This document shows positions 33,562-63,448 of a stretch of 64,000 nt of DNA, in pieces. The stretch comes from Athalassotoga saccharophila (GTDB lineage Bacteria > Thermotogota > Thermotogae > Mesoaciditogales > Mesoaciditogaceae). Numbering within the stretch: the stretch's first letter is position 1; every line of letters starts with the position of its first letter. A program made the translations under genes and the position numbers. Where the stretch lies: NCBI RefSeq assembly GCF_009936215.1, contig NZ_AP019551.1:1512708-1576707 (forward strand), in the 5' to 3' direction. The notes below the pieces were generated by a model. That model was not told where the DNA came from and ran no database searches. It was given only the letters and a program-made list of their open reading frames with translations.

Positions 33562-33689
33562 TAAGCACGTAGCGGGTGGCTCGTGGCATGTAGTAAAAAT
33601 GGAGAATTGAAAATGGACAATTTTCAATTTGCAATTATCAATTAGTTCCACTCACTGCTCACTGGAGCCATTGGCCATAGGCCATGCGC
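33562..33689. repeat. Palindromic repeat at the trailer of array 3
   Basis: One copy of the 8640-type element (CACGTAG head, GAATTGAAAATGG hairpin arm, CAATTATCAATTAG tail, GGCCATAGGCCATGC segment), running into the degenerate first repeat. No gene is seen between 33479 and 33689 apart from the element at 33509. Confidence 0.75.
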
Positions 33690-35210: not shown

Positions 35211-35624
35211 TCGTTGACATAGTATAACATAAGGATTTCTAAAAGTCAATTTTGGGAAAAAGTATGTGAACTTGTATACATAAAAGTGAGATAAAAGCTT
35301 TAGTGATAATTATTTATGTAAGAAATCCGATCGTCGTCGATCTCCGGGGGTTTTTCGAGTATCGTAGGTCGACGACGATGGTAAATGAAGTATGAATGAT
35401 GTTAAGAGAAAAGGAGGCAATGGAAATGATCTGTGAATATACGCAAATCTATTCGGTTATTGGAGATAATTAATATGAGTTCTTATGTGATTGAATGTTA
35501 AGGATCGGGTGTGTAACAAAAGAGGTGGAGAAAAGAGGCTGAATTTAGAACAAAAGAATATATATTCGCAATCCAATGGTAAAATATGAGAGGTCATTCA
35601 CCTGCGTTGTAACATGCCAGATCG
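35211..35624 (-). promoter_or_regulatory. CRISPR leader 3
   Basis: Near-identical to leader 2. Minus-strand promoter TTGACT (35244-35249), 17 bases, TATACT (35221-35226). The 11-bp inverted arms are at 35330-35340 and 35369-35379. No gene seen. Confidence 0.85.
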
Positions 35625-40126: not shown

Positions 40127-40363
40127 AATCCCATCCTCCTATCAATGATCTTCCAAATCCATACTCTTCCATTTCATCCGTGAATGTTATAAAACCATCT
40201 GATTTTATTTCCCTTTCGCTTTCTACAAAGTAAACGCTTCCGGCCGGAACCGCAAGTTTTGACGCACGCGTTTTATTTTTTGCGATATCGAAAGTCGAAA
40301 CTGTTATGCTCTTTGCATTTGCAATCGAGACAAGTTTGCATTTCACACCGTTTATGAATATAT
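40119..40363 (-). pseudogene. cmr3: cmr3 (module A), 3-prime fragment
   Basis: Encodes the last part of Cmr3: NGVKCKLVSIANAKSITVST, then FDIAKNKTRA, VPAGSVYFVE and GFGRSLIGGWD. The fragment aligns with the same region of the intact module-B Cmr3 (YDIAKNKPKMM, VPAGSVYYFE). The gene was cut by the insertion sequence at 40364; joining the flanks with one copy of ATATAT restores a continuous frame (GENIFINGVKCK). A GTG at 40346 could still start a 75-residue product. Confidence 0.9.
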
Positions 40364-42213: not shown

Positions 42214-43042
42214 TTTCTCCATCGAAATTTTGGGGAAGTACTCCGTTTTTAAATATGGCAGGCGTTGCAAGGTATATCATTATTCTTCCTTTCAACGTCT
42301 TGGGAGGTATCGTAACATCTTCGATTTTTGTAAATGCCACATGTCTTTCACCACCGAGAAAGACCGATTTTACGTTGTTCAATTTTCCCATATCATTTTC
42401 GACAAATGAAGCAAATCCACATCCATCACGAAATCTTATAGTCGCCTCTCTGTAGATGTACCTCTTTTCGGCCGCTCCTTTTGCTTTGTCAATTTTTATC
42501 CCTATTCTGTTTTCGATTTCGTAAGTTTTGAATTTGTCCTTTTCGATAGTTATAATGTCTTTGCCATTTAGAAATTCTAAGAGCGAATTCAAATCCAAAT
42601 ACTTTATGTCTGGCTCTTCAAGTGTTTCGTAAGATCTGTGCCACAATTTTGTCAGAATTGCGACTTTGTCACCGGAGACTATTTTGTATCGATCAAGTTT
42701 TTGAAATGGTTTTAATTTTATAAGAGTTAAAGTTTTATCTTCATCCGATCCTTTAAGCATGGATAGATTTCGTGGCATCGGAAAGAAGATGTTATTTTGA
42801 TCAAAGGTAAAGGGTCCTATTGATCTGAATTTGCCGTGTTCTGTCGTTGTACCTATGAAATCTTTATATTTACCATTTTTAAAATCCTCCATTGATTCAA
42901 TTAGAGAAGTTCTCAAAGCACCGTAAAAGACGCTTGGAAGAGGATAGTGGGCATTTATTGCCTCATTGTCACTGCCTGCATCGAATGGTTTGGCGTCTCT
43001 GAAGAATAAAACATCCTGGGGATAGAATTTGACGATTTTCAA
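42208..43042 (-). pseudogene. cmr3: cmr3 (module A), 5-prime fragment
   Basis: About 279 genuine residues of Cmr3 beginning with a TTG start overlapping the cmr2 stop. FYPQDVLFFRDAKPFDAGSD (about 5-24) is the Cmr3 N-terminal signature and LPSVFYGALRTSLIE (about 33-47) the next block. The frame runs a few codons into the insertion sequence (ending SHIFDQK) before a stop at 42176. The missing C-terminal quarter includes the glycine loop, so the product is probably not functional; module-B Cmr3 might substitute. Confidence 0.92.
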
Positions 43043-45519: not shown

Positions 45520-46763
45520 TGTTTCAACCCCCAAATCTCTCCGAATTTTTTGTAGACCTCATTGAAATCATCAGAAATATTTACAATTTTTTTGTTTTCG
45601 TTCGACTCTTTATCCTCTTTTTTATTTTTGTCCAACTTCTCAATTGCTATAAGTTTACCATCACTGCAAATCGCTGCTTCCAAAAAAGCATAAACCATGT
45701 AATATTTTGAATTGTACTTTTTCAAATTCATGTGAAGTGGGGAGGTTTTTCTCCCAGTAGAATTATCTAAAGTTACACGTGGTTTTTGATTAAGGTAAAG
45801 AATCGGAAGCCCGAGCAATGCACGCTTGGCCTTGTAATGTGGGTTTGTGTAAGCACTTTTGAAATAACTGTCTTTCTCGAGTGATCTTCTGAGTTTGTAA
45901 TAATTTTGGCCAACCATACTTAAGGCCTGATTGTAATCTTTACCTGACAATTCAATGGCACCAAAGGTTATCGATTTTTGAGGATCAAAAAACGGATAAG
46001 TCGGAAGCCCTTTGAACTCGACTGGATTGAAATTCAGATTTTGACGTTCTTTTGGGTTAATACTTTCAAATATTTCTTTTGATTTCTGGTAGATATTTTC
46101 AACGGCATCTTTTGACATTTGTGCCAAATTTGCAGGGTTGAACTGGTAGATATTTTCAACGGCATCTTTTGAATTTGCAGGGTTGAATTGGATTGATTTT
46201 ATCTGAAAACTTCCAAATCCTTTGTCAGTTCTTGCGCCTATTCCCCCAAAGGTAGAATACAAAAAGATGACATTGTCGATGATGGATTCTATTCTTTGAA
46301 CTTCTTTTTGATTCAGAGATCCGTCCTGATTGGCAGAAAAGAAAGAAAAATTGATCTTGAAAGTCCCGCTATCCGCGTAAGACTTCCATTCTTCTTTTCT
46401 TATTGTTTTATCTTTTACTTTAATTTTTAAAGTTTCATACATTCCAAAGGCGAGGTATTTTATGGGATCGATCGAGAAACGAATGTTTTGCATTCTAAAA
46501 CTTTGACCCTGAATTGGAGTTGATTTGGAAGAAAGATTTGAATCGACAGAGATTATGACTTTAGATTTTTGGGATGTGTCTCCGAAGATGTACGATTCTA
46601 TGAATTTAAGTGCCGGGATGTTGTCTTTAAGTTTTGAAGAAAGGGCCGTCCTAAACCAGAACCTTAATCCACCCTTTATTTCCGTTGCCCTCAGTTCAAA
46701 GGCTTTTGGATCGGCGCCGTGGGCAAACATTGGACTTATAATTTCACATTCGTAACTTTTCAT
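45516..46763 (-). CDS. cmr1: Cmr1 (module A)
   Basis: A 415-residue RAMP subunit that caps the 3-prime end of the crRNA. The N-terminal CEIISPMFAHGADPKAFELR (about 5-24) and IKGGLRFWFRTALS (about 30-43) are the Cmr1 signature, and GGIGARTDKGFGSFQI (about 172-187) the glycine loop. It carries an internal in-frame tandem duplication (46086-46142 and 46143-46187) giving FNPANSKDAVENIYQ followed by FNPANLAQMSKDAVENIYQ, just after the glycine loop. AGGTGG precedes the ATG. Confidence 0.92.
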   Translation of the reverse strand: MKSYECEIISPMFAHGADPKAFELRATEIKGGLRFWFRTALSSKLKDNIPALKFIESYIFGDTSQKSKVIISVDSNLSSKSTPIQGQSFRMQNIRFSIDPIKYLAFGMYETLKIKVKDKTIRKEEWKSYADSGTFKINFSFFSANQDGSLNQKEVQRIESIIDNVIFLYSTFGGIGARTDKGFGSFQIKSIQFNPANSKDAVENIYQFNPANLAQMSKDAVENIYQKSKEIFESINPKERQNLNFNPVEFKGLPTYPFFDPQKSITFGAIELSGKDYNQALSMVGQNYYKLRRSLEKDSYFKSAYTNPHYKAKRALLGLPILYLNQKPRVTLDNSTGRKTSPLHMNLKKYNSKYYMVYAFLEAAICSDGKLIAIEKLDKNKKEDKESNENKKIVNISDDFNEVYKKFGEIWGLKQ

Positions 46764-46767
46764 CTTA

Positions 46768-47853
46768 TCACCACCTTTTCATCGCCTCTTCTATATGAAT
46801 TTTTAAAGCGATTTTTTGATTTTCCGTCTTTGCCGTTGTCTTTGCTATAAAGCCTATTGTCTCTCCATTTTTTGTGAAATATATTTCGAAATCATCACCT
46901 TTGACGTTTACCTTTGTTTTGTAATCGCTATTCGGGTTGTAATAGGAGCACCTTAATTCTTTTATATATGGAATCTCAAGAAGTTTTTTTGATATCCCGT
47001 ACTTTTCATCGAATCTTGAAGAATTCGGCTCATTTGAACTTGAGATGTATTTAGGATCAGATGTACGTTTGGAGGGAAGATTATTCGTATCGGTTTTAAA
47101 AAGTTCTTTAAAACTTTTGTGGAAGATAACTCCCATTGGGCTAAGACCGTATATCTTTTCGTTACCTCCCTTTTCAAAGTCAAATAGAACTTTTAATTGA
47201 GGGTCTGCAGATCTTACAATTTCTTCATTTGCCTCAAGTTTTTCAAGGCTTTCGAGTAAATCGTAATTTTTCATCCAAAAACTGTAATCGAATGACACAG
47301 GCATCGGGGGAAGTTCTATTATCTCGTTGAATCCTTCGAACATGTAGTAAACAGGAATTTTAAGTATCTGGCCGATAAGAGTTGCGAATGATATCTGCGC
47401 TTTGTATCCTCCGGTTGCGTTTATTATGGTCGTCTCTGGAGATTGAGAAGAGAGATCAACGAGGGTATTTGCAATTTCTTTGAGACCTTTGTTTCGAAAT
47501 TCAAATCTTTCTTCACCGGTAAGACCCTTTATCTCTTTGATGTACACATTTGTGAACTTAAGAGGCGATCTTTCATTTTCAAAGTAATCTTTCAAAACTT
47601 CTCCCGTCTTTCGTCCATCTTCCGTGTCCGAGACAAGCAAAAAGATGTCATATTTGTCGTGAACGAAACCCTGTTTTACTATGCTGTAGGTAGAGTTTAT
47701 TTCCGCTCCGCATATCTTTTCAGATGGATCTTCCGAGATAAGCCTTTTGACGATAGACTCTTTTGAAAAGGCGGTCTTAAGATTTGGATCTTCCTTCTCA
47801 AAGTTCGTGAGTAAACTTCTTCCGACCGTGCATATAACGCGCTGTCTGAACAT
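46768..47853 (-). CDS. CARF-domain ancillary protein A (APE2256-type, Csm6/Csx1-like)
   Basis: A 361-residue protein with an N-terminal CARF domain (about 1-195): VICTVGRSLLTNF (5-17), IINATGGYKAQISFATLIGQ (about 139-158) and IPVYYMFEGFNEIIELPP are the CARF fold blocks that bind cyclic oligoadenylate. The middle is helical. The last 60 residues form an alpha/beta unit (FEIYFTKNGETIGFIAK) that might be a RelE-like RNase as in CARF-RelE (Cami1-type) proteins; no HEPN RxxxxH motif is seen. The start overlaps the cmr6B stop (TAATG). It is the likely toxic output of type III signalling, but the effector domain is tentative. Confidence 0.75.
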   Translation of the reverse strand: MFRQRVICTVGRSLLTNFEKEDPNLKTAFSKESIVKRLISEDPSEKICGAEINSTYSIVKQGFVHDKYDIFLLVSDTEDGRKTGEVLKDYFENERSPLKFTNVYIKEIKGLTGEERFEFRNKGLKEIANTLVDLSSQSPETTIINATGGYKAQISFATLIGQILKIPVYYMFEGFNEIIELPPMPVSFDYSFWMKNYDLLESLEKLEANEEIVRSADPQLKVLFDFEKGGNEKIYGLSPMGVIFHKSFKELFKTDTNNLPSKRTSDPKYISSSNEPNSSRFDEKYGISKKLLEIPYIKELRCSYYNPNSDYKTKVNVKGDDFEIYFTKNGETIGFIAKTTAKTENQKIALKIHIEEAMKRW

Positions 47854-48677: not shown

Positions 48678-49069
48678 TAATTTTCATCTCCTTCTATCAT
48701 ACTCTCGACAAATCTTTTCATCCACGTTAGTAATGCTATTACTTCATTTGTAATTATTCGATATTCATAGGAATTTTTTCTAATTATTTCACTTATCAAA
48801 TTTTCATTAATAAGTTTTTTGTATATTAGCCATTGTTCAATCTGAACATAAATTTTATTATAAGCAGATTCTTCTCTTTTAGATTCTCCTATTTTAGAAT
48901 TTATAAAAGCCATGGTCGGTCCTAACCCATTTACTTTTATAAGCATCGGAATCTTTTTTACGTATGATTTGTATTTTTTTTGTTCGTCTGGTTTCAAAAT
49001 TTGCTTTGCTTCAAAAACAAAATCATAAGCTTTACTCGCTCTTCCATCTTCTAAAGTCATATCAATCAC
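48677..49069 (-). CDS. cmr5: Cmr5 (module B)
   Basis: A 130-residue helical small subunit. KYKSYVKKIPMLIKVNGLGPTMAF (read as two parts, about 37-60) contains the family N-G-L; RIITNEVIALLTWMKRFVES is the terminal helix. It overlaps cmr4B by four bases and cmr6B by one base. Confidence 0.87.
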   Translation of the reverse strand: MIDMTLEDGRASKAYDFVFEAKQILKPDEQKKYKSYVKKIPMLIKVNGLGPTMAFINSKIGESKREESAYNKIYVQIEQWLIYKKLINENLISEIIRKNSYEYRIITNEVIALLTWMKRFVESMIEGDEN

Positions 49070-50022: not shown

Positions 50023-50034
50023 TTTCATCACCCC

Positions 50035-51144
50035 TTAAATTTTTGATTTATTGATAACTCGTATTTTAGAATTTTTGATAATACTTTCACGGTCTATATA
50101 TGTGCCACCAGAATCTAAATATTTTTGTTCTTCTATTTCCTTGTTAAAAACTTTATATATGTATATGTTATCTTCGATCTCAAAATAAAATATTCTATTA
50201 TTGTTATTTCCATCATCATAAACTATATGTTTACCTTTGCCCTTAATTTCTTTTTTTGATTTTCTTATTTCAGATTTATAGAATTTCTCTTCGAGTATTC
50301 TTTTGATATCTGGCATTTTATTTATGTCATTCCATACCTCGTCAGGACAATAAAAAAAGAATTTTTCGAATTTATATTTATCCCAAAATATCTTCCCCAT
50401 TGGATTTAAATCACATATATCACCTGCATCTTCTATTAACGATGATGCATCTTGCAGAAATTGGCGATTCAGCAGATCTTTTTTACGAGTGGGAAATTGT
50501 TCTAACTTTAGAAATTCACTCTGATATTTTTCAAATATTTCATTATTTATTTTTAATGGAGCTTGAGGTATTTTTATCAATTCTTCTGTTTCTTCAAATT
50601 TGTAATAGATTGGTATTTCATTTATCTGGGCCAATATAGTTAAAAATGGGATTAAACCTTTATACCCTCCAGTAAGATTGAAAACCATATCACCGAAATA
50701 TTGAAATTCTTTATAAAACCAATTTAAAATATTTGGAATTCCTTCTTTTTCGAAGGCTTTTCTATCCTCTACTTGAAGTCCTTTTATGACTTGATTTTTA
50801 TCATTAAAAATCACGTTTATTTTAGGTTTATGATCATAACTTTCGAACCATTTTAAAATTATTTCGCTTGCTATCTTTGAAGTTATCGTATATGTTGATA
50901 TTAAATAAACTTCAAGATCTTCTTTTAAATCTTCTGAGATCTTTATAATGCTAGTTATCTCAGCACTTGCATCTTTTTTCCCCTGTGCCCATTTTAATAT
51001 GTTATTTTCTAAAACCTTCAGTTCTTCTTCCATATTTTCCCATTTATCAATTGAAAGTTTTAACATTTGTAAGTTGGTATTTCCATTATTTTTTCTATAA
51101 TTTTCAATTATAGACGCTCCAACTGTTGAAATGACATTCTTCAT
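50035..51144 (-). CDS. CARF-domain ancillary protein B
   Basis: A 369-residue relative of CARF protein A. The CARF domain (about 1-200) has NVISTVGASIIENYRKN (3-19), MVFNLTGGYKGLIPFLTI (about 151-168) and IPIYYKFEETEELIKIP (about 175-191). The C-terminal portion (FYFEIEDNIYIYKVFNKE near 315) again looks like a small alpha/beta domain that may be RelE-like. It sits inside the cmr operon between cmr3B and cmr4B, so each module has one CARF partner. Ring-nuclease activity is an alternative role. Confidence 0.72.
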   Translation of the reverse strand: MKNVISTVGASIIENYRKNNGNTNLQMLKLSIDKWENMEEELKVLENNILKWAQGKKDASAEITSIIKISEDLKEDLEVYLISTYTITSKIASEIILKWFESYDHKPKINVIFNDKNQVIKGLQVEDRKAFEKEGIPNILNWFYKEFQYFGDMVFNLTGGYKGLIPFLTILAQINEIPIYYKFEETEELIKIPQAPLKINNEIFEKYQSEFLKLEQFPTRKKDLLNRQFLQDASSLIEDAGDICDLNPMGKIFWDKYKFEKFFFYCPDEVWNDINKMPDIKRILEEKFYKSEIRKSKKEIKGKGKHIVYDDGNNNNRIFYFEIEDNIYIYKVFNKEIEEQKYLDSGGTYIDRESIIKNSKIRVINKSKI

Positions 51145-51154
51145 TTTTATCACC

Positions 51155-52192
51155 TCAGTAAAACAAAATTGTTATTCCAAATCCCTCGCTTGAAAGTTCC
51201 TCAGAAATCGACTGATATTGAAAAGCAGATTTTATACTTTCAAAGTCTCCTTTCAATACCTCAAAATAATAAACACTACCAGCAGGGACAAACTTTTTCA
51301 TCATTTTTGGTTTATTTTTGGCAATATCATATCCTCCAGCCATTATCGGTTTGCCAACAACGGCTGTTATAAGTTTTAAATGTAGATTTTTATATTTTCC
51401 TTCAAAATTTTCATCGAGCCATGAAGGAATCCAACCTTTTTTGAAATAGGCAGGGGTCATAAGATATAGTCTTAAATAGTCTTTTAATTCAGATACTCTA
51501 AAAAGTTGTTGGATGCTACGTGGAATTTCTATTTCTTTATAGTAGGCGGCTTTTCCCTCTCCTCCTAATTTAAGAATTCCATTTGTAAGTTCTAATCCAT
51601 CGTAATCTACTAAAAATGATTTTAAAAGATTCGGTCTTACCATTCTTGCTTTATAGAGCCGGCCTTCTTCTTCATCTGTAGTTTTCAATTTGTTCCTTCC
51701 TATTCCTATATGAGTTTCATATTTTATTAAATTTTCTGCTTTAAATAGAGGGCTTTGAGTTACAATACTCGTAATATTAAAATACGAATTCTCAAGGCTT
51801 TCTACTTTTTTATTTACTGGACTTGTTAGTAACTTCGGCAATTTGAAATTTGAATAAAACCTATCAGGCTTTTTATCTAAAACTAATTTAAAAAGTTCAT
51901 TTGAATCGTTTTGATCTTTTGGTAAAACAAAGTCCAATGGAGTTTGCAAAAAGATACTTCCATCTTTATCCTTAAGAAAAACTCCCTTTATCTTTAAGCT
52001 TTTAGTTGGATCTTTGTCAGTATTTACAAATTTAAAACTTTCTGAATGTTCAGAGAAATAAGCTGTCCTGATGGCACCATAAATAGTAGATGGCATTGGT
52101 GGAAATATACTATTAGCCGTGGTTTCTTCACCCATCGTGTACTCTTTTGTATTTCTAAAAAACAGTGTATCAAGAGGTGTTATTTCAATCAT
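51155..52192 (-). CDS. cmr3: Cmr3 (module B), intact
   Basis: A 345-residue RAMP subunit that binds the crRNA 5-prime tag. ITPLDTLFFRNTKEYTMG (about 3-20) is the Cmr3 start, FPPMPSTIYGAIRTAYF (about 27-43) the next block, and GGYDIAKNKPKMMKKFVPAG (about 283-302) plus SSEGFGITILFY the C-terminal loop. The ATG overlaps cmr2B by eight bases; an upstream in-frame ATG (52225) lies inside cmr2B. Because the module-A copy is disrupted, this is the only complete Cmr3. Confidence 0.92.
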   Translation of the reverse strand: MIEITPLDTLFFRNTKEYTMGEETTANSIFPPMPSTIYGAIRTAYFSEHSESFKFVNTDKDPTKSLKIKGVFLKDKDGSIFLQTPLDFVLPKDQNDSNELFKLVLDKKPDRFYSNFKLPKLLTSPVNKKVESLENSYFNITSIVTQSPLFKAENLIKYETHIGIGRNKLKTTDEEEGRLYKARMVRPNLLKSFLVDYDGLELTNGILKLGGEGKAAYYKEIEIPRSIQQLFRVSELKDYLRLYLMTPAYFKKGWIPSWLDENFEGKYKNLHLKLITAVVGKPIMAGGYDIAKNKPKMMKKFVPAGSVYYFEVLKGDFESIKSAFQYQSISEELSSEGFGITILFY

Positions 52193-53873
52193 TTTCAATC
52201 TGCCTCCTAACAAAATCAAGCACATTTAAAATATCAAACAACTCTTCTTTGTTTTTGGTTTGCGAGCAATTGTATAACTCGTAAATACTTTGAACTAATT
52301 TGTCTATTTCTTTTTTCTTTCTTATGTTAAATTCTTCGTCTGTTTCGTGATTTAGCTTTTCCATCATACAAGAACGTTTAACAAGTCTTTCTATTTCACT
52401 TTCAATCATAAGTTGTTCGTTATTTTCATTATCTAAATTTTTAAATTCCATTTGAATTGTTTTTATAAAATTATTGGAAAAATTTGAGGAAGATAGTTCA
52501 AATAAAATGTTATTGAGATAATCTATCATCCATTTATTTTTATCGTTTTTCCATTTGAATCTTGTTTTTAATATCTCACCGGATCCCTTTATTACGGCAA
52601 TGGCTATAGAATCTTTACCAGGATTTTCTTTGGCATAATGTTCCATTTCTCTTGCCCAATTTAAGGAATCATAGAGAGGATCTTTGTAATGTGCAATAGA
52701 TATTCCAGCCGAGAATGTTATGAATTTATCTAATTCAAAATCATTCTTCAATTGATTATTAACTATTTCATCAAAAGCTTTTCTAAGATCTTTTAATGCG
52801 TCAAATATATAGTTGATATTTACAAATCCCAGAAAGTCTTCTCCCCCTGCATAAACTATTTTTCCATATTTGTCATCTATTATTTCTTTAGTTTTTTCGG
52901 CAAATCGTCCAAGAGATTTGGACAATGATTTGTGAAATTCCATCAATTTTTGATTGTCTTTGAGATTTTCTCCTGAAAGTTGCTTACCCATTGAATCACC
53001 ATCAAAGGTTATGATTCCATAGTACTTCGAAAGTTTTAATTTTCTTTCTTTGAATATTTCTTCGTTTTGGAATTTTATATTATCTAAATTAGGAATTAAA
53101 TTCCCAATTCCATTATTTTTAAAGTATCTATCGTTCAAATTTTCTTCGTAAAGTAACTCCGGGTCATATCGTGGCCCAAATACATTCTTGAATTTTATGT
53201 ATTTTTCATCATCTTTCAATTCTTGTATAACATTGTATAAAGCTATTTCTGCCACCGAAGGAAAAGAACTTTCAGAATATTTTCTCTTAGTAAAGCAAAC
53301 TTCGCAAAGAACTTCTCCTTCAGAGAAAGTAAAATCATTTTCTATTCTTACTGCGTCGGGGGTCAAATTTTTTATCACCTTTGAATTGTTGTAAAATTTT
53401 CCAATACGTTCACCACAAACAGAGCATTTTCTAAAACTTGTATCTTCCATTACTTGATTAAAAGTTCTTACATTTTTAACTGAGCCTAATAAAGATTCAA
53501 TTTCACTGAAATTCTTTATGTAATCATTGTATGGAATTGAAACCCAGTGTATGTCAAGAAAATCATAAAAATTAGAAGGATTTTTTATGTGTGTTTTTTG
53601 ATTTATAATTGAAACAAATTTATTTCTAACTTTCTTTTCAAGTGCTTCCCCAAAAAGTTGCGGATCATCAACTGTTATTTTTGCTAAAAATCTATTTGGG
53701 AGAGATTTCATATCTTTATCTGGGAAAATAACTTCTATTTTATCACCGTTGATAGCAAAAGATATTAAATCAGATAATAGAGTACTCCCTCCAAACAAAT
53801 CTCTCGCTTTTCTCGCCTGCGATATAAAAGATTGGACAGGTCCTATTGTAAATAAGAAGAGATATTCGTTCAC
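52185..53873 (-). CDS. cmr2: Cas10/Cmr2 (module B), HD-less with GGED palm
   Basis: A 562-residue short Cas10. It begins at FTIGPVQSFISQARKARDLF (residues 8-27), the point where the Palm region starts in normal Cmr2, so the N-terminal HD nuclease domain is absent. A Cys4 zinc site is present: CSVCGERIG (about 154-162) and EVLCEVCFTKRK (about 190-201). The Palm motif is IVYAGGEDFLGFVNI (about 337-351), GGED instead of GGDD; the acidic pair remains, so nucleotide cyclisation may persist. It lacks DNase but may make signal molecules. The GTG start overlaps cmr1B (GTGA). Confidence 0.9.
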   Translation of the reverse strand: MNEYLFLFTIGPVQSFISQARKARDLFGGSTLLSDLISFAINGDKIEVIFPDKDMKSLPNRFLAKITVDDPQLFGEALEKKVRNKFVSIINQKTHIKNPSNFYDFLDIHWVSIPYNDYIKNFSEIESLLGSVKNVRTFNQVMEDTSFRKCSVCGERIGKFYNNSKVIKNLTPDAVRIENDFTFSEGEVLCEVCFTKRKYSESSFPSVAEIALYNVIQELKDDEKYIKFKNVFGPRYDPELLYEENLNDRYFKNNGIGNLIPNLDNIKFQNEEIFKERKLKLSKYYGIITFDGDSMGKQLSGENLKDNQKLMEFHKSLSKSLGRFAEKTKEIIDDKYGKIVYAGGEDFLGFVNINYIFDALKDLRKAFDEIVNNQLKNDFELDKFITFSAGISIAHYKDPLYDSLNWAREMEHYAKENPGKDSIAIAVIKGSGEILKTRFKWKNDKNKWMIDYLNNILFELSSSNFSNNFIKTIQMEFKNLDNENNEQLMIESEIERLVKRSCMMEKLNHETDEEFNIRKKKEIDKLVQSIYELYNCSQTKNKEELFDILNVLDFVRRQIEND

Positions 53874-54744
53874 TTTATACCACTTCCTTTTTTTATTAAT
53901 TCATTCTTGAAATTTTCTAATTTCTCTTGTTTTACTTCAACGCAACTTGGAGGAGCAGAATGAAGCGTAGTTACAACAGATGAAAATTTGTCATCGCTTG
54001 TCTGTAAAATTGAAACATAGATTGGAGATGCAAATCTACAATAATTATTGCCGTTGATGCGAATAAATGAATGTTTATGGGATGCTTCATCTATAATTCT
54101 TCTAACATCTTCTGCATTATCATTAAAAGATTGACCAATTTCAACTGTTTCTATCCAAGGATACTCAAGTTTTGATTTTTTTAAAACCTTTATTTTTTTA
54201 TTTTCCTCATCTATTTCATAATTAGATGAAATATTTTTAATAACCTTAAAAATATCTTTTAAGTCTATTCCCTGATTTCCTAATTCTTCATTATTTATTT
54301 TTTCTACTTTGAATGACCCATTCCCCTTCTTGCTCTTCTTCCAAGTCCACCTAAATAAGATACAAGTAGGAATAAATTTTTGATGAATTCTTGATTTATT
54401 CTTTTTTTATCATTTATGTAAAAAACAACCTTAAATTGTTGCTTTATTAAACCATTCAATTTAAACGACTTATGAGGTAACAGAGTATATTCTTGATTTT
54501 GTACATTTTCTTTGTTTTCAATAACGATCGAAAAACTACTCTTTTTAGGGTTATCATCAACGCCACCAAACAAATTTTTTTCTTTTTCTTTCATTTCATT
54601 AATTTCAAGATCACTGTTAATCGCTCTCCACCAGAATCGCATCGCTGCCTTAATGGATGTTTCTCTCAATTCAGGAACTTTTTTATCCACCCCAAAAAGA
54701 AACATTGGAGTTATTATCTTACATTCAAAGGTTATACTTTCCAA
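53870..54744 (-). CDS. cmr1: Cmr1 (module B), interrupted by a frameshift
   Basis: The first 146 codons give a Cmr1 start (CKIITPMFLFGVDKKVPELR, IKAAMRFWWRAINS) and reach the glycine/arginine loop LGGLGRRARRGMGHSK before a stop at 54304. The expected continuation lies in the other frame: GNGSFKVEKINNEELG and on through SFIRINGNNYCRFASPIYVS to HSAPPSCVEVKQEKLENF, ending at 53870 exactly in a GTGA overlap with cmr2B. One extra G in the GGGG run (54323-54326, minus strand) would read RARRGNGSF, the normal loop. Total length would be about 291 residues. Start is TTG after AGGGGG. It may be a mutation, a sequencing error or slippage. Confidence 0.85.
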
Positions 54745-54759
54745 ATTAATTACCCCCTT

Positions 54760-54782
54760 TCAAATTCATTAATCACACTTTA
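54760..54782 (-). promoter_or_regulatory. AGTGTGATTA element, copy 5 (cmr1B)
   Basis: Minus-strand AGTGTGATTA (54770-54779) immediately after the CYTH-CARF-HD stop codon, followed by ATGAATTTGAAAGGGGG, whose end is the cmr1B ribosome-binding site. No terminator precedes it. Confidence 0.6.
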
Positions 54783-57341
54783 TGACTCTATTGCCAAATT
54801 TTTCAGTTTTTCATTGGCAAGTTGAAGGCCAGAACTTTTAAATTCATTATTTATATCTTTTTTTATATCTTTTACTATATCTTCTACTTTCTCTTCTGGC
54901 ACTTTCTTTTCAGGATATACTTTGATGTAAAGCGTTTCTTCTTTTGGATTGTAAAATTCTGGCATTATACTTTTTACAGCCTGATGCTTTTCGAAATGCT
55001 GAAATTGTCTTGATTTGAAGGCTATTCTGTCGGCCTTTTTTATGTATTCATCTATGAATATCACTTTTTTATCCGCGACATTTTCGAGATTCGATCTTAT
55101 TTCTTTGTATACAATATCTTCTATTTCACAAGCAACATTGTCTAAAGCCTTCCAATCTTGCGCGTCAAGATATTCGAGCGTTTTTAATATTTTTTCGGTC
55201 ATATCCAATTTGGAAAGCATCGAATTATTTGCAAGAAAGTCATAGCACAAACTTTCTATTTCGTCTTTTGTTCTTTGAACTCTTATTTGAGTGTATTCAT
55301 CCATGACGGTTCTGTCTGACTGGACATCTGTCGAGTCTATGAATTTAAGCCATCTTGCCGCAAGCATTATCATCTTTTTCCATTCTTTGGAATTTTTAAA
55401 CAATTCGTCTTCATTCAATCTTGCCTCGAGAGATTTTATCTTTATCTTGAGATTATCTATGAAACCTTTGCGAGAAGGATTTTCATTTTCGCCTATAGGA
55501 AGGTACTGTCTGTGGTATTTGCTTACGTACATTATGGCCTTCTTAAGTCTTGCGATTTTTTCTTTATCTTCATCTATTTTTTCTATTCCATCCAAAAGAT
55601 TCTCATTCTCTATCAACTGATAACTCAATTCACTGTGCAAATCTCTCACAACGCTCGGAAGACCATCAATGCTAAATTCAATTCCATTATCCGTTGTGTA
55701 ATTAAGAACTGTATGGCCTAAATCATGAATGTTCATCGCCACGGCAAGAATGAAATAGAATTCTTTTCTAAGATCGGGATTAACTCCGTTCAAGAAATTT
55801 TCTTCTCCCATAATTCTTACAAGGTTGAATCCGAATTCCATTAGTCTTTTGCTGTGTCTTTGAGAATGTTCGACCGTTTCGGGAATAAGATCTCCTATCC
55901 ATCTCAAACTCCAGATCGGAATTTTTTCATTAACAAAGTTTATCATCTTGTCGTCTCTTATAAGATCTATGAAATTTTTCCCGTGACCGAATGGTAATTT
56001 GCGGGCATTATCGTAATTCGCTTTTATCTCGTTCAATATTGGAACAGTTATAAGTTGTCCTTCTGGAGAAATGGAAAAAAGTTCCTTTAAAAACTCTGGC
56101 AAAATCACAAAAATATTGTAATTTATAATTTCTCCATTTTGGACCTTTGAAGATATTAAATCGAAATATGGGCTGTAATCGTCAATGGTCTCATTGTTCC
56201 ATCCAATAGGGAGAGGGGGGAATTTTAACTGAACCATTTTCTGTTCACTGATACCATCTGTTATCTCATTTTTCTGCTTGTAATAAAATGCTTTTTTGTT
56301 AAAAAGGCTGTAAATGGCAAGTTCTATCCCCGGGTATTTCTGCCCCCCTGTTAAGTCGATTAACGTATTTCGACCATCTTTATTATCATCTGCAACTTTT
56401 GAAATAACGTCAAATATTTCACGAAGAGATTTGTAAGCAGAATCTTGACTTGAAGAATCATAATTTATCGGTGAATAAGAGCATTCTAACCCAAATATTC
56501 TATTTACCGCCTCTTTAAGAAGAGTATAATCATGAGGATAGTCTTTACCTTTTTCAAAAGATGGAAAGACAAGAAAATGCACTTTTTCCACTTCAAAACC
56601 GCTTTTTATGAAAAGGTACAAGGCATCTATTTCTCCGATAAATTCTCTGTATTTGTTCGATTTGGTTAATTCTTCTAAACGTACATTAAAATTTTTATCT
56701 TTTCCCGCCCCTTGTCCTTGGGTCATAATGACCGTCACAGGACCTATGAGTCTATTTTGGACATATTCGATAATCTTAAGAGGTTTTATTTCTCGCTTTT
56801 TAGCCTTATAAAAGTTTTGATACGATTTTTCTTTTGTCAAATCCTTAACGTCTGTGATCTCAAGTCCGATGCCTTTTAATTCATTCTCGAAATATGAATC
56901 GTCTTTATCTTCTTTGGTTTCGATTTCAAGGTAATACAATCCCGGATCATCATTTTTTAGTATATCCTTGTTGTCTATTTCCAAAAATTCGTCAAGAAAT
57001 ATTTCCGGATTTTCTTTGATTATGTATCTTATCTTTACAACGTTTTTCTTTTTTTCTAAATCAGATAGATTTATATCTTTTCGTGGATCCAGAAAATCTT
57101 TTGTTTCGAATCTTTTTTCTGGATTATCTGTGAGTGTTTTGGTTGCTTTTTCCCAGACATGTGTATGGCCTATCACTTCGTCGTAAGAAATAGTTAGCCT
57201 TATACGCTTTTGAGGGTTTTCTGTCTCTTCGTACCATTGAATTATTCCGATCTTTTTAATGCTGTTGTGCTTCAAACGCTCGATCTTTTCGCGATCTTCG
57301 AGAAGATATTTTCTTTCAATTTCTTTAGTTTCTTCGGTCAT
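54780..57341 (-). CDS. CYTH-CARF-HD multidomain signalling protein
   Basis: An 853-residue protein with three domains in an unusual order. Residues 1-185 form a CYTH (triphosphate tunnel) domain: EIERK (7-11) is the ExExK signature, KRIRLT and KIRYII supply basic strands and LYYLEIETKE (136-144) a late acidic strand. Residues 195-375 look like a CARF domain: VTVIMTQGQGAGKD, VHFLVFPSFEKG and the ligand loop LIDLTGGQKYPG (327-338). Residues 485-700 hold an HD phosphohydrolase: EHSQRHSKRL (491), NIHDLGHTVLN (537-547) and DLHSELSYQL (567). CYTH enzymes hydrolyse or cyclise triphosphates, CARF binds cyclic oligoadenylate and HD cleaves phosphodiesters, so the protein may sense, degrade or make nucleotide signals. 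The start follows GGAGGT; an element AGTGTGATTA is upstream. Confidence 0.72.
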   Translation of the reverse strand: MTEETKEIERKYLLEDREKIERLKHNSIKKIGIIQWYEETENPQKRIRLTISYDEVIGHTHVWEKATKTLTDNPEKRFETKDFLDPRKDINLSDLEKKKNVVKIRYIIKENPEIFLDEFLEIDNKDILKNDDPGLYYLEIETKEDKDDSYFENELKGIGLEITDVKDLTKEKSYQNFYKAKKREIKPLKIIEYVQNRLIGPVTVIMTQGQGAGKDKNFNVRLEELTKSNKYREFIGEIDALYLFIKSGFEVEKVHFLVFPSFEKGKDYPHDYTLLKEAVNRIFGLECSYSPINYDSSSQDSAYKSLREIFDVISKVADDNKDGRNTLIDLTGGQKYPGIELAIYSLFNKKAFYYKQKNEITDGISEQKMVQLKFPPLPIGWNNETIDDYSPYFDLISSKVQNGEIINYNIFVILPEFLKELFSISPEGQLITVPILNEIKANYDNARKLPFGHGKNFIDLIRDDKMINFVNEKIPIWSLRWIGDLIPETVEHSQRHSKRLMEFGFNLVRIMGEENFLNGVNPDLRKEFYFILAVAMNIHDLGHTVLNYTTDNGIEFSIDGLPSVVRDLHSELSYQLIENENLLDGIEKIDEDKEKIARLKKAIMYVSKYHRQYLPIGENENPSRKGFIDNLKIKIKSLEARLNEDELFKNSKEWKKMIMLAARWLKFIDSTDVQSDRTVMDEYTQIRVQRTKDEIESLCYDFLANNSMLSKLDMTEKILKTLEYLDAQDWKALDNVACEIEDIVYKEIRSNLENVADKKVIFIDEYIKKADRIAFKSRQFQHFEKHQAVKSIMPEFYNPKEETLYIKVYPEKKVPEEKVEDIVKDIKKDINNEFKSSGLQLANEKLKNLAIES

Positions 57342-57383: not shown

Positions 57384-58757
57384 TTCAAAATCTTTCTCAA
57401 GTATGCAATCACGACCGTCTATGTATGCGTTCATTATTGCCTCTTTGACAAGACTTTCGAGTTCTCTGAAATTTCCAGGATAGTCGTACCTTTCAAGTTT
57501 TTCTATCGCCTTTAAACTTATCCTTTTGATCTCTTTTTCTTTTTGGAGAGAAGTTAACTGATCCTGAAGGACAAAACTCAGAATATATCTGAAATCACTT
57601 TTTCTCTCTTTCAAAGACGGTATTCTAATAGAATAATCAAATCTCTCAAACAGGTCTCTTCTGAAATTTCCGGTTTCTATCTCTTTTTTGATATCTTTAT
57701 TCGTTGCCGCTATGATCATCACGGGCACCTTTAACCCCCGAGGATCGGAATATCCATCTATCGTTACTTTCATATCATCTAAATACGTTAAAAGTTTTGC
57801 CTGAATCTTTTCACTTATTTCACCTATTTCATCCAAAAAAATAACTCCGCCCGTGTTTGAAAGAAATTTCCCCATCTTGTAAAGGCTTCCGGTAAAGGAT
57901 CCCGGAAAGGTTCCGAAGAGTTCAGAATCGACTATTGTTTCGGAAATGTTGACAAGGGTAACTTTTGCAAAGTGATCTTCAAAGTCATTTTCTAAGAATT
58001 TGCGCGCTATGTATTTTGCAAAGAGTGTTTTTCCGCTGCCGGTAGGTCCGGTTATCAATATGGAAGGCAATTTCCCAATTGAAAGTTCTTTCGATTTATT
58101 GTTTATTTCTCCAAAAATTTTTTGAACTTTGCTTAGTTCTTGAGTGTTGGAGTTTTCTAATTTTTTTAATTCATCTATTGCGCTCTTAACATCTTTCCTG
58201 AATTTTTGAAATTGTTTTGCCGTAGATTTTAATGACTCAACGATTCTGTTGGCTTTAAAGATGACAGAGCGCATATTTTCATCTGAGAACATGGATATGA
58301 ATTTTTCTTTAGAATAATTGGAAAGATCTATTTTCCAGTTTACCGGCTTGGACATTTCCGACTCTAAAAATCGAGTGCTTAATTTATCACGGACAAGTCT
58401 TTTTAGAACGTCTTCGAATCTTGCCATCTCAGAATACTCTTTTCTTTCACCGTAAAATCTTTTAACATCGAAGATGGCGTAAACGTAAGATCTTTGCTGG
58501 GCATTAACGACTGCCCTTTCATTCAATTCACCATCGACAAGATATATCTTGTTCATGATCTTATCTTTCTCATCATTTGATTCTTTTACGATAACTATGT
58601 CATTTTTATCGAACTTGGATGGAAATTCATCCACAGGGCAAAATTCAACTTTACCTTCTATATCCGGCTTGTTTTTCAAAATGACATTTATTAGTTCTTC
58701 TACAGGCTTGTCATCTTCACAATCGCATTTAACGTAAAAAATCTTAATCTTGTCCAT
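57375..58757 (-). CDS. Sigma54-activator-type AAA+ ATPase without a DNA-binding domain
   Basis: A 460-residue protein. Residues 1-225 are an unrecognised regulatory part with a possible alpha/beta start (KIKIFYVKCDCED) and a coiled-coil-like stretch (170-225). Residues 228-440 are a complete bacterial enhancer-binding-protein ATPase: Walker A GPTGSGKT (236-243), ELFGTFPGSFTGS (279-291, matching ELFGxxxGAFTGA), Walker B VIFLDEIGE (305-313), AATNKD (350-355), FRRDLFERFD (365-374, Arg fingers) and YPGNFRELE (426-434). The chain ends at 460 with no Fis-type helix-turn-helix. The GAFTGA loop normally contacts sigma54; here the neighbour is an atypical RNA polymerase, so promoter opening for that enzyme is a plausible role. 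RtcR-like proteins are the closest known analogy. Confidence 0.8.
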   Translation of the reverse strand: MDKIKIFYVKCDCEDDKPVEELINVILKNKPDIEGKVEFCPVDEFPSKFDKNDIVIVKESNDEKDKIMNKIYLVDGELNERAVVNAQQRSYVYAIFDVKRFYGERKEYSEMARFEDVLKRLVRDKLSTRFLESEMSKPVNWKIDLSNYSKEKFISMFSDENMRSVIFKANRIVESLKSTAKQFQKFRKDVKSAIDELKKLENSNTQELSKVQKIFGEINNKSKELSIGKLPSILITGPTGSGKTLFAKYIARKFLENDFEDHFAKVTLVNISETIVDSELFGTFPGSFTGSLYKMGKFLSNTGGVIFLDEIGEISEKIQAKLLTYLDDMKVTIDGYSDPRGLKVPVMIIAATNKDIKKEIETGNFRRDLFERFDYSIRIPSLKERKSDFRYILSFVLQDQLTSLQKEKEIKRISLKAIEKLERYDYPGNFRELESLVKEAIMNAYIDGRDCILEKDFEIV

Positions 58758-59598
58758 TTTTACCACCTAAATGTTTGAGTATATTTTTGAACTCATCATT
58801 TTTATTTAAATTCTCAAAAAAAGTGTCTTCGGTAAATGTTTTTTCTTCTGATGATCTTAGAATTTCATTCAAAATTTCCAGCACAGAATTTGTCTTTCTA
58901 AGGCAATCTCCGTTTAAAGATTTGGAGTCTAATTTTATGAAATCATCTTTGAGTTTTTGAGATTTACCTATACCGATTCTAAAAAGCGTCATTGCGAGAG
59001 TCTTGACATTTGGCTTACCGTTGAAGGTCAGGGCAGAGATTTTGACATCGACACCGTCCCAGAATCTCATGTAATAACTGAGAAAGTGTCTGTTGGTTTT
59101 GTTTTTAATATCGGTAGAATTTTCATTCACCTTCAAAAGCATCTCGGATTTGAACCGTTCGTAAAAATCTTCTCTGCGCGGATTTTCAAAGTCGTAAAAT
59201 CCATTTGCGTAACTTTCTATCACCGACGCGGCTTTCGAAAAGTTCTCAAAACTGTTGTGTTTGAAGTAAGATGTTTCTTTATCATTACCATAACCTTTAA
59301 AGCCATAATGGATAACCCTGAATTTTTCACCCTTTAAAATTAAAAGGACTGTTTTTATCTTTGGAGGATATTTGGGAAGTTCCAAATTCAAAATATCAAG
59401 ATTTAGAGATGTATCTTTTTGACTTTGATCGTCATTTTCATCTTCTGTGTATATCTCTTCATCTTCATTTTCATCGTAATCGAGTAAATCTTCTTTTGAA
59501 AGCGATGACTCGATAGGTGAAGATTTTTTTAGATCTTTCCTTGAGAATTTGTTTTTTTCTTTTTCTTTTTGCGTTTGCCTAATTTTATTCTTTTCCAT
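58744..59598 (-). CDS. Unknown acidic protein encoded between polymerase and ATPase
   Basis: A 284-residue protein with no family I can name. Residues 1-30 are Lys-rich (EKNKIRQTQKEKEKNKFSRK), residues 35-70 strongly acidic (DYDENEDEEIYTEDENDDQ) and likely disordered. From about 75 there is a folded part with KTVLLILKGEKFRVIHYG, FLSYYMRFWDGVDVKISALT (about 160) and helices to the end, in two lobes. It overlaps the polymerase end by 14 bases and the ATPase start by 14 bases, so the three genes are translationally coupled. The context suggests a subunit, initiation factor or anti-factor of the polymerase. The ATG is chosen because GGAGG lies nine bases upstream. Confidence 0.6.
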   Translation of the reverse strand: MEKNKIRQTQKEKEKNKFSRKDLKKSSPIESSLSKEDLLDYDENEDEEIYTEDENDDQSQKDTSLNLDILNLELPKYPPKIKTVLLILKGEKFRVIHYGFKGYGNDKETSYFKHNSFENFSKAASVIESYANGFYDFENPRREDFYERFKSEMLLKVNENSTDIKNKTNRHFLSYYMRFWDGVDVKISALTFNGKPNVKTLAMTLFRIGIGKSQKLKDDFIKLDSKSLNGDCLRKTNSVLEILNEILRSSEEKTFTEDTFFENLNKNDEFKNILKHLGGKNGQD

Positions 59599-62500
59599 CC
59601 AAGATCGCCTCCACTTCGTCTGGCAAAAGTGCATAAATGGACTTTGGAGATCTCTCCTCTATCCGATCGATCTTTTCAAACGCTTTTGCTATATTGCTTT
59701 TCTTTATGCCGTTTTCTTTCTTTCCAGGAGGATTTTCGAAACTCAAAGCAGAGAAGAAACCATAGTTTTTAAGATCTGTGAGATACTTTTTCATCTGGCC
59801 TTCTGTTTCTATTTTGTTATTCTTCATGTACATAAACAATATTTCAAGGTAGATGGATGATACGTCTATCGTCTTTAAAAGCCATTCTTTCTTGTCTGAG
59901 TCTTTGCCGGTCATCAACTTTATCAAATCTTCATTTGCGAGATTTACAAGGTAATCAACAAAACTTTTCTCCATTCTTCTGAAAAATCTGCTCGATACCG
60001 CAGACATTTTGAAATCCGACTTACTTGTCTGGAAGGTCTTCATTGACAGTTGAGTGCCACGTTCTCCTATCGTGTGTCCCGATATCACGCCTATGAAGTC
60101 TCCGATTCTAAAACTTTCATCTGAAGTGGAAGGATTTATGCCGCAGCACTTTTCGCAGGGACCATTTTCTGACTTGCATGTTACAGGGCTTCTGAGTATA
60201 AAACCATCTGTTGCTTTTTCTTTCATTTCTTTTAAATTGTCAAAGTTAACAAGTACCCACTCTTCATCTTCTTTGAATTTTATGTATCTTCCATTTATAA
60301 TTCTTTCTATATCGTACTTCCCGACTAATTTTTCGATATCTGTTTTTGTGAATTCTATCCCTTCATTCGTTCCACAATCGTGGGAAGAGATTCTGAGAGG
60401 ATATAAGAATTCGACCATCTTTCTTGTGAAATATCCCGCTTCGGCGACGTGCAATTTTTTGTCAAGCATTGACTTCCTTCCTCGTACGGCAAGACAACTG
60501 TCAAAATTCTCGAGACCATTTCCTATGTAAAATTCGAGAGGAATTCCATTAGAGAAATTTCCTATGTTTTGATCTCCTATCTTTATCTCTTTGTAAATGG
60601 ACTGGAAATTTTCGGCCTTTCCTCTTGCCTTCGATTCCTCGATCTTTTTGATGTCCCCCATTCCACCTTTAGCCTCGAAGAATGACACGCTTAAATTTTG
60701 GGATGTTGCAATTTCAAGCATTTCTTTTTGTATGTCGAGAAGTTTCTCTGGCACATCTTTGTGGGATAATATTATCTCTTTTATCTTTTCGGAAAGGTTG
60801 GAATTTTTATCTTTCAAATAATTTCCATAGGTCATATCCTGTGAGATCGAAATTGAAAAATCTCTGTTTCCAATCTTGAAAAGATGATTCGAAGGTGTCA
60901 TCTTTTTCATCGTTGATCTGATCTTCTCGTTCTGATCGGAAGGATAATACACGGCCATCGTATCCCCGTCAAAATCGGCTCCGAATCCTTCGCACACCAT
61001 TATTGGAAGACCTATGGCGTAATTTTCCCAGAAGATCGGATAAAAAGCCTGTATGCTATGAAGATGAAGGGAAGGCTGACGGTTTAGAAGTACCATAATT
61101 TCATTTAATTTGCAATAAGAATTGGCAATGTCAGCGAACTCTCTTCTTTTGATCATGTCCCCTTCAAGAATAGATCTTTCGTTTTCAAACTTAAGATTAA
61201 ACCATTCGAGGGCGAAATCAACGGGGAGATAAACGTGATCTACGTCTATATCCGTTGCAGGAACTATCGTTGCGCGACCGGAATAATGAATCCTTCTTCC
61301 GAGCATTGCCGTACGCGGGAATCCATCTTTTGATATCAAAAATTTTGCCTCTTTATAGGCCTTACCCTTTCTATCTTTTATCATATCCAAAATTTCTTCA
61401 TTTTTATCGTCCTTTAAGCCGTCTAATTTTTGAACAAAGAGTTTTCCGCCCTCCTTTAAAGGCCTTATCGTGAAATTGTGGTACTCATCCAAAAGTGTGT
61501 TGAAGGAGTTCAAGTATTTATAATATTCTTTCCATCGGGTAAGATTCGTTTTTGCAAAGAGTTGTATTACCGGTATCGCCTTATGATCGAATAAGGTCCA
61601 AAATTCCATCTCTCCTATTCTCTGGCCACCATTGTTTTTACGTCCCTTGTAGGGCTGAAATGTTATTTCTGAAATATGCTTTGTATGTCCGATGACGTGG
61701 AGTTTGTCCCTTACACAATGATCCAAGCGCACAAAATACTGGTATCCGACAATCGCGCTAAAGACAGTTTCCTTTCCGTTGACTTTGACATGCAGTGGAA
61801 ATTTTCCATTTTCATCGCCGCCAAGCGCTTTAAGTTGTGAGATCAATTTGTCAGGATCGACTTTAGAATCAACACTTCCATCTGTAAAGTTTACAAGCGT
61901 ACCATGGGTCTCTATCAACTGACCAAGATTCATTCTTGTAATTATTCCGAATGGACTGAGAATAAGATCGAGGATCTTTTTCTTCCCGTCTATCTCGACG
62001 TAGGGCATTTCTTCATCTTCGAGTATTCTCGAAATAGTTCCTTTGTTTCCATATCTACCAGTTATTTTGTCTCCAACCTCAAGTGGTTTTTCAACTTTTA
62101 CGGGTATTCTTATCGTCAAATGACTCATGGAAATCATTTCTTTTACAAGCGGAGGAGTTATATCTCCTATTTCAAAACAATCCTTTGTTATGTTCAAAGT
62201 ATATGTGTACCTTTGATCAAATAAAAAAGACCTTTTCAAATCTTTGTTTTCATTTCCATCAAAAAATACCCTTCTCCTAAGATAAAGATCGCCATACACA
62301 ACATTTTGAGTTTTGACGAATTCATAAACAATCTCAATAGATTTTCCGCTTTGAACTTTCGATTGTATGACAAACTTCTTTGTACTTCTGCCAGATTCAA
62401 TTATTTCATAATCGATTGGAAGCGGGACTTCATCTTCTATTTTCAGTTCTTCTCTCGATTCTATCTTCATCTTTTGAGAGAATGATTTTGAGGCGACTAT

Positions 62501-63448
62501 TCCATCCTCAAAATTAAGACCATCAAAGAGTGCATATCCGACAAAAGCATTTACTCCTAAATCGAAGCCAATTTGGTCTTCAATGCCAGTCTTAACGATG
62601 GGTTTTTCACTTCCAACGACTCTAATGGCCTGCTTTAAGTTTTTTCCTCCCATCATTGCCCTTGGCGTGTCATTGTAAGTTAAAAATGGAACGAGTAAAG
62701 TCGAATAACTGAAAAAATCATTAGAACTTTTGATATCTGAATCTATGGCCAATTTTTTAGCGTTGTACCTTGCGCCGAGAGACAAAAACAAAGAAAGGCC
62801 TATCTCTTCTGATTCAGGGCTTTCGAGTAGATCTATCTTCCCAAGATGTGATTTGTGTGGATATCTCATCGTGTCTGCAACAACGCTTCCATGGTACACT
62901 ACTTTTCTTGTGTTGGAAATCTTAAGCAATGGATTTGATTCGTCAAGTTCAAAAAGAGAGGGAATTCTTACAAACCGTTTTGATTCTGGATCTATTTTAT
63001 GAATCTTCGTTCCTATCTCTACCGTGCTTAAATTTGCCGAGATCATGTACTCAAAAAGTTCAGATTCATCTTTGAATTGAAGTGCACGATCGTAAGAACT
63101 CATTATCTGAATGGCCTTATCCAAAAAATATCCAGGAATCACGAAAAAATTCTTTAGATCCATGTTTTTTACCTGTTCTTTCAATTGTTCAGGTTTTTCG
63201 ATAAGCACAAATGGAGAATAATAATTCTTTCCCATCCATTTGTAAATTCCATCATTTGGAATCAGGCAAAGGAATTCGACCTCTAACGGATCGTAAATCC
63301 TTGAGTTGATTTGTAATTTGACGATTTTGTATAACTCATCCTTAATAAAAAAATTACTTGTAGAGATTATCTTTAGAGCGTCGTAGTTGAAAACTTTGGG
63401 CCTGTAATTAGAAATAAAAAAATTTAATCCATCGAATATTTCTTCCAT
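59585..63448 (-). CDS. Single-chain DNA-directed RNA polymerase: fused compact beta and beta-prime cores
   Basis: A 1287-residue protein containing, in order, the hallmark blocks of both large RNAP subunits. Beta part: HKSHLGKIDLLESPESEEIG (198-217), NDTPRAMMGGKNLKQA (259-274), FDGLNFEDGIVAS (308-320), GDKITGRYGNKGTISRI (459-475), PFGIITRMNLGQLIETHG (499-516), NNGGQRIGEMEFWTL (605-619). Beta-prime part: GRRIHYSGRATIV (717-729), LLNRQPSLHLHSIQAF (787-802), GADFDGDTMAVYYP (823-836, catalytic Asp triad), VRGRKSMLDKKLHVAEAGYF (988-1007), DCGTNEGI (1024-1031), then CKSENGPCEKC (1091-1101, zinc ligands with C1025) and GHTIGERGTQLSMKTFQT (1124-1141). It is less than half of normal beta plus beta-prime. 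Only about 100 residues separate GEMEFW from GRRIHYSGR, so the N-terminal zinc finger and sigma-binding clamp helices of beta-prime are missing. An ATT at 63469, eight bases after AGGAGG, could be the real start, adding seven residues. Confidence 0.93.
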   Translation of the reverse strand: MEEIFDGLNFFISNYRPKVFNYDALKIISTSNFFIKDELYKIVKLQINSRIYDPLEVEFLCLIPNDGIYKWMGKNYYSPFVLIEKPEQLKEQVKNMDLKNFFVIPGYFLDKAIQIMSSYDRALQFKDESELFEYMISANLSTVEIGTKIHKIDPESKRFVRIPSLFELDESNPLLKISNTRKVVYHGSVVADTMRYPHKSHLGKIDLLESPESEEIGLSLFLSLGARYNAKKLAIDSDIKSSNDFFSYSTLLVPFLTYNDTPRAMMGGKNLKQAIRVVGSEKPIVKTGIEDQIGFDLGVNAFVGYALFDGLNFEDGIVASKSFSQKMKIESREELKIEDEVPLPIDYEIIESGRSTKKFVIQSKVQSGKSIEIVYEFVKTQNVVYGDLYLRRRVFFDGNENKDLKRSFLFDQRYTYTLNITKDCFEIGDITPPLVKEMISMSHLTIRIPVKVEKPLEVGDKITGRYGNKGTISRILEDEEMPYVEIDGKKKILDLILSPFGIITRMNLGQLIETHGTLVNFTDGSVDSKVDPDKLISQLKALGGDENGKFPLHVKVNGKETVFSAIVGYQYFVRLDHCVRDKLHVIGHTKHISEITFQPYKGRKNNGGQRIGEMEFWTLFDHKAIPVIQLFAKTNLTRWKEYYKYLNSFNTLLDEYHNFTIRPLKEGGKLFVQKLDGLKDDKNEEILDMIKDRKGKAYKEAKFLISKDGFPRTAMLGRRIHYSGRATIVPATDIDVDHVYLPVDFALEWFNLKFENERSILEGDMIKRREFADIANSYCKLNEIMVLLNRQPSLHLHSIQAFYPIFWENYAIGLPIMVCEGFGADFDGDTMAVYYPSDQNEKIRSTMKKMTPSNHLFKIGNRDFSISISQDMTYGNYLKDKNSNLSEKIKEIILSHKDVPEKLLDIQKEMLEIATSQNLSVSFFEAKGGMGDIKKIEESKARGKAENFQSIYKEIKIGDQNIGNFSNGIPLEFYIGNGLENFDSCLAVRGRKSMLDKKLHVAEAGYFTRKMVEFLYPLRISSHDCGTNEGIEFTKTDIEKLVGKYDIERIINGRYIKFKEDEEWVLVNFDNLKEMKEKATDGFILRSPVTCKSENGPCEKCCGINPSTSDESFRIGDFIGVISGHTIGERGTQLSMKTFQTSKSDFKMSAVSSRFFRRMEKSFVDYLVNLANEDLIKLMTGKDSDKKEWLLKTIDVSSIYLEILFMYMKNNKIETEGQMKKYLTDLKNYGFFSALSFENPPGKKENGIKKSNIAKAFEKIDRIEERSPKSIYALLPDEVEAILDGKE

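Follow-up and report, generated by a model that had tools for sequence, protein, structure and literature searches.

A CYTH-CARF-HD protein of a type III-B CRISPR locus as a possible cyclic-oligoadenylate-gated sensor in a module of four parts that has its own RNA polymerase

Introduction

Type III CRISPR systems usually respond to infection with nucleases, proteases and membrane proteins. In the Calp system, CalpL, CalpT and CalpS are a SAVED-Lon protease, an anti-sigma factor and a sigma factor, respectively, and the sigma factor works on the host RNA polymerase (RNAP). The available part of a report on Calp describes the conversion of a CRISPR cyclic oligoadenylate (cOA) signal into a transcriptional response (PMC12751052). 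UAS-58, in the available text of the source that lists it, was entered in 2023 without further study as "two-component RNAPol + CARF", a CARF protein and an RNAP near type III loci (Altae-Tran 2023, PMC10910872). The PADLOC collection contains the families CARF7--CARF_CYTH_HD (PDLC01929) and CARF7--CARF_HD (PDLC01933), as catalogue entries whose profiles carry neither a function nor a link to an RNAP. The name of the former presumably stems from the 2020 CARF classification. The CARF7 group includes the Crn1 ring nucleases (PMC12409355). A literature search for functional studies of a CYTH-CARF-HD protein found none.

The protein described here is encoded in the window, a 64,000-nucleotide stretch of Athalassotoga saccharophila DNA. 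It is genuine, and its architecture is already catalogued: the PDLC01929 profile, which has the same domain order, matches nearly its whole length (E=1.3e-127; residues 89-840 against profile positions 10-697 of 706). The earlier note on this DNA knew of no type III effector for which this order had been described, a statement overtaken by the named family, and also by the legend of the CARF panel for UAS-58, which names CYTH, HD and FleQ in the part of the source available (PMC10910872). The locus, with an RNAP and a CARF protein beside type III CRISPR, fits the available description of UAS-58 and is probably an instance of it; new with respect to that text are a gene of unassigned family, the absence of sigma-54 from some hosts, and co-inheritance in two phyla (PMC10910872). 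The likeness to Calp is one of working principle, the relay of a cOA signal to transcription, which on the side of the present module is presumed. The proteins are unrelated, and the module brings its own RNAP, whereas Calp relies on that of the host.

Organization of the locus

The CYTH-CARF-HD gene and its neighbors are as follows.

59585..63448, minus strand: fused minimal beta-beta' RNAP, 1287 aa, catalytic motifs intact
58744..59634, minus strand: unknown protein, 296 aa (below, the intervening protein), with a basic N-terminus, an acidic disordered stretch and a folded part of ~170 aa
57375..58766, minus strand: sigma-54-activator-like AAA+ ATPase, 463 aa, no C-terminal HTH, N-terminal 190 aa of unassigned kind
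54780..57341, minus strand: CYTH-CARF-HD protein P0001, 853 aa, ATG start, Shine-Dalgarno sequence GGAGGTG
54304..54744, minus strand: 5' part of cmr1, frame broken afterwards
52185..53873, minus strand: Cas10/Cmr2 (short), motif GGED
50035..51153, minus strand: CARF7 CARF-RelE protein in the cmr operon
46768..47853, minus strand: CARF7 CARF-DUF2103 protein
43039..45534, minus strand: second Cas10/Cmr2, motif GGDD
33687..35214, no strand assigned: CRISPR array, 23 repeats, 65-73 nt spacing

The RNAP, intervening and AAA+ genes lie upstream of the CYTH-CARF-HD gene on the same strand, and the latter closes the run. The RNAP and intervening genes overlap by 50 nt and the intervening and AAA+ genes by 23 nt; gaps of 33 and 35 nt separate the CYTH-CARF-HD gene from the AAA+ gene and from cmr1, respectively. 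The earlier note recognized the three-domain protein and overlooked these linked genes just upstream of it. Downstream follow the broken cmr1, cas10, cmr3, the CARF-RelE gene, cmr4, cmr5 and cmr6; with the second cmr set beyond them, positions 38159-54744 hold two tandem type III-B sets, each with its own Cas10 and CARF7 proteins. Judged by their motifs (GGED and GGDD), both Cas10 proteins are cyclase-competent. The genome of the window also carries an ordinary rpoB and an ordinary rpoN. The cmr1 of the first operon is split, with a stop after 146 aa and the remainder in another frame (53870-54300); the second cmr1, at 45516-46763, appears intact.

Domains and active sites of the CYTH-CARF-HD protein

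Three regions were assigned in the protein.

56793..57335, minus strand: CYTH / triphosphate tunnel domain, residues 3-183, fold match to SaTTM, PH1819 and AtTTM3, tunnel residues conserved
55998..56744, minus strand: CARF domain, residues 200-448, fold match to Cami1, Sis0811, Cad1 and Csm6, profile match to 3qyf
54783..55949, minus strand: HD domain and C-terminal helices, residues 465-853, HD-CE Pfam match, invariant H/D residues

An AlphaFold2 model built from 10 family members (mean pLDDT 79, pTM 0.77) was used for structural comparison. The CYTH part (residues 4-181) matches 7nsa (Z 12.9, rmsd 2.9, 149 aligned), and its fold matches extend to the vaccinia capping RNA triphosphatase, in addition to the three listed above; the CYTH fold by itself does not distinguish a class IV cyclase from a triphosphatase. 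Of the complete CYTH copies, all but the degenerate one of L028 retain the 13 tunnel residues that were checked, and that of L032 differs only at a 14th site, E118. The CARF part (residues 200-448) is matched by Cami1 (8phj; Z 14.8, rmsd 7.0, 218 aligned), and further by Cad1, Csm6 and the ring nucleases Sis0811 and Sso2081. The GG-x-K loop is present, and position 335 is K or R in all relatives.

The HD part resembles the C-terminal, HD-like portion of PPX/GppA (6pc0; Z 14.2, rmsd 3.3, 179 aligned), a match found among those listed, which are mostly CARF matches, leaving room for other HD folds. This match is helical and, thus, weaker evidence by fold alone. The assignment is supported by sequence, through the HD-CE family (PF24391), which was matched in 28 of 28 relatives (best 9e-15; 27.1 bits against a cut-off of 27 for the domain of the window protein itself), and through the invariant histidines and aspartates of the metal site. 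The candidate ligands H492, H496, H539, D540, H543, H569 and H610 do not vary across 37 relatives, nor do D669 and D672 across the 36 that reach that far. Sequence conservation along the protein is highest in this part. Sequence did not mark the domain clearly as a dNTPase or phosphodiesterase (PDE), with PDB matches at E values of only 0.12-0.84, the best being the weak match to the HD protein 2o6i (E=0.12).

The residues to which the earlier note had pointed, E7/E9/K11 (EIERK), D329-L-T-G-G333 followed by K335, and H539/D540, are all in place in one chain. It had named a central domain unlike CARF, or incomplete HD ligands, as grounds for giving up its reading; the central fold was found to be CARF-like and the ligands to be invariant. 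The CYTH-CARF-HD protein was absent from the viral contigs and the plasmids that were searched.

The partner proteins

The extra RNAP keeps the motifs ADFDGD and GDK..GR.GNKG and the trigger loop GERGTQLSM.TF, and the catalytic barrels are present. Its family profile matches only residues 452-1113 of the host's own RpoB and 596-1338 of RpoC; the N-terminal ~450 aa of beta and the N-terminal clamp region of beta' fall outside the match. The fused single-chain phage RNAPs likewise unite beta and beta' in one chain. The module RNAPs differ from them in forming a separate clade, in being shorter and bacterial, and in their linkage to CARF genes. In a tree of 37 sequences, only seven of them cellular, with long branches and unusual composition, the module RNAPs constitute one clade (100/100) that groups with phage RNAPs. 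A recent origin by copying of the host rpoBC was considered and rejected; a single clade with cellular RNAPs was excluded (AU p=0.008).

The AAA+ protein keeps the Walker A and B motifs, the arginine residues and a GAFTGA-like loop in 33 of 33 copies. It shares the AAA+ domain and this loop with RtcR and the NtrC family of sigma-54 activators, but differs from them in lacking an HTH and in occurring in hosts without sigma-54. A C-terminal HTH was looked for and none was found, the AAA+ match stopping at about residue 450 of 463, and the N-terminal domain showed no match to CARF or receiver domains. Judged as a bEBP, the protein has the loop and lacks the combination of an HTH and a genomic sigma-54. 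An rpoN match is missing from four genomes (G006, G007, G094 and G097) and covers only 28 residues in G095, while G000 has rpoN. In the hosts without detectable sigma-54, the substrate of the AAA+ protein must be something else. Many Thermotogota carry divergent sigma-54 proteins, whose match to the rpoN model is confined to its N- and C-terminal parts.

The intervening protein always sits between the RNAP and AAA+ genes. It evolves fast, and 31 of 32 copies have an acidic stretch at about residues 26-90, usually preceded by a basic N-terminal segment and followed by a folded part. Its structure model is poor (pLDDT 47), and searches of Pfam and PDB returned no match. Kinship with sigma-54 was tried and rejected (hhalign probability 14% against rpoN). 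The intervening protein may be the substrate of the AAA+ motor, and may occupy or tether the polymerase channel.

Co-inheritance in two phyla

The survey covered 103 genomes of Thermotogota and 185 of Synergistota, the phylum of Fretibacterium. In Thermotogota, the CARF protein occurs in 19 of 103 genomes and the extra RNAP in 27 of 103; all 19 genomes with the CARF protein have the extra RNAP, versus 8 of the other 84 (Fisher p=9e-15). The association was also found at the level of genera (13/13, p=4e-7) and within genera in which presence varies (combined p of about 2e-7), and in some Thermotogota the two proteins co-occur even though their genes are separated by tens of kilobases or placed on different contigs. 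Cas10 was detected at E<=1e-10 in 18 of the 19 genomes with the CYTH-CARF-HD protein.

Synergistota have the RNAP in 14 of 185 genomes, and 13 of these 14 encode a CARF-HD protein without CYTH (p=2e-13), the counterpart of the CYTH-less PADLOC family PDLC01933. Its gene lies directly upstream of the RNAP gene, on the same strand, in all 13 genomes, and the order CARF-HD, RNAP, intervening protein, AAA+ was observed wherever contig and annotation reach that far. The patterns in the two phyla define a shared unit, consisting of CARF-HD and the RNAP-intervening-AAA+ genes, to which CYTH has been added in Thermotogota. Some members that retain CARF-HD and the RNAP have lost CYTH or keep it in degenerate form; CARF-HD is the conserved core and CYTH is optional. 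Co-inheritance with the RNAP and the AAA+ protein indicates that the CYTH-CARF-HD protein is probably part of an immune device rather than a lone enzyme. CARF-HD is also present in cmr operons without the RNAP in some Synergistota (L214-L216 and L218), and can thus probably act alone.

Proposed function and alternatives

A role of the CYTH-CARF-HD protein as a cOA sensor is well supported by the CARF fold, the cmr operon and the two Cas10 genes. It is possible, and is our tentative preference, that it is a cOA-gated hydrolase of type III-B CRISPR and serves as sensor for a module of four parts, one of them a dedicated RNAP. As the locus suggests, Cas10 of the adjacent cmr genes would sense target RNA and make a cOA, which a CARF dimer would bind, with cA4 as the most likely ligand judging by the nearest structures. 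Binding might switch on the HD metal site, a putative phosphohydrolase of the HD-CE group, and possibly also the CYTH tunnel, which could bind or trim 5'-triphosphates (pppRNA, NTP or PPPi). The hydrolase would act together with, or gate, the minimal RNAP inherited with it; to start or to clear, this RNAP may need the AAA+ motor working on the acidic-tailed intervening protein rather than on sigma-54. The net effect would be an infection-triggered shift in the transcripts of the private polymerase, as well as in the pools of triphosphates or the 5' ends of RNA. RNAP uses NTPs and yields RNA with a 5'-triphosphate, and the CYTH/TTM fold is known from proteins that bind triphosphates or remove them; a shared substrate is, thus, the simplest link between CYTH and the RNAP. 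More doubtful is a fuller version, in which type III CRISPR has captured a phage-related RNAP. An AAA+ motor of the sigma-54 type would start this RNAP by acting on a partner other than a sigma factor, and the cOA-sensing CARF-HD protein would gate it, allowing infected cells to continue or begin transcription that is beyond the reach of phage shut-off.

The occurrence of CARF-HD without the RNAP, in several Synergistota cmr operons, makes a stand-alone nucleotide-hydrolyzing effector the strongest rival. The protein would then be a cOA-activated toxin, in which a dNTPase- or PDE-like HD domain and CYTH deplete (d)NTPs or related triphosphates, and the RNAP genes would belong to a separate neighboring system. 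The HDLGH motif and the weak resemblance to 2o6i are in keeping with such an activity, and Cad1, in the available part of the report, provides a precedent for type III effectors that attack nucleotide pools (PMC11645235), but the RNAP is co-inherited in two phyla, and we regard this reading as rather unlikely. The earlier note had left a choice between maker, sensor and eraser of nucleotide signals, of which the sensor has gained ground. An eraser, a ring nuclease or a cOA/pppA-degrading enzyme that resets the alarm made by Cas10, is conceivable given the membership of Crn1 in CARF7 and the fold matches to Sis0811 and Sso2081; it is nevertheless improbable, as HD or CYTH would be superfluous for a ring nuclease, the same operons hold two other CARF proteins, and the HD part is the most strongly conserved. 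A maker is the least likely of the three and scarcely credible: the CYTH fold and the ExExK motif would suit a cyclase of the class IV type that makes cAMP or some other cyclic nucleotide, but the nearest folds (SaTTM, AtTTM3 and the vaccinia enzyme) are triphosphatases, and certain members with CARF-HD and the RNAP have a lost or degenerate CYTH.

If the CARF protein does work with the extra polymerase, as in the preferred reading, CRISPR would own a whole transcription machine, and a sigma-54-type motor would operate in the absence of sigma-54, a point of relevance to the way in which such motors open polymerases. Co-inheritance makes both directly testable, and the strongly preferred partnership, the phage-related polymerase and the sigma-54-independent motor make the module worthy of laboratory work.

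Variants at individual loci

As exceptions that speak against the module, the RNAP-intervening-AAA+ genes occur without detectable Cas10 or CARF in four Thermotogota genomes (G011, G022, G057 and G064), and as a broken copy in G059. In the latter (L086), which lacks a detectable Cas10, the gene of the extra RNAP is split over several frames. A gene with matches to the conflict-system domains PDC-M16A and TBP-TOTE lies just past the AAA+ gene of a CARF-less RNAP operon (L069:985-3330). Three CYTH-CARF-HD proteins (L032:5411-8584, L033:5486-8713 and L035:3333-6482) carry an extra C-terminal domain that resembles a second CARF (LLTPLGTSPG ... VNLAGGTSF). The first of these is adjoined by a DEAD helicase of ~1050 aa (L032:8598-11747; PADLOC C3a193, "poss. 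alt. Cas3"), and genes of similar size are found at the same place in L033, L034 and L035.
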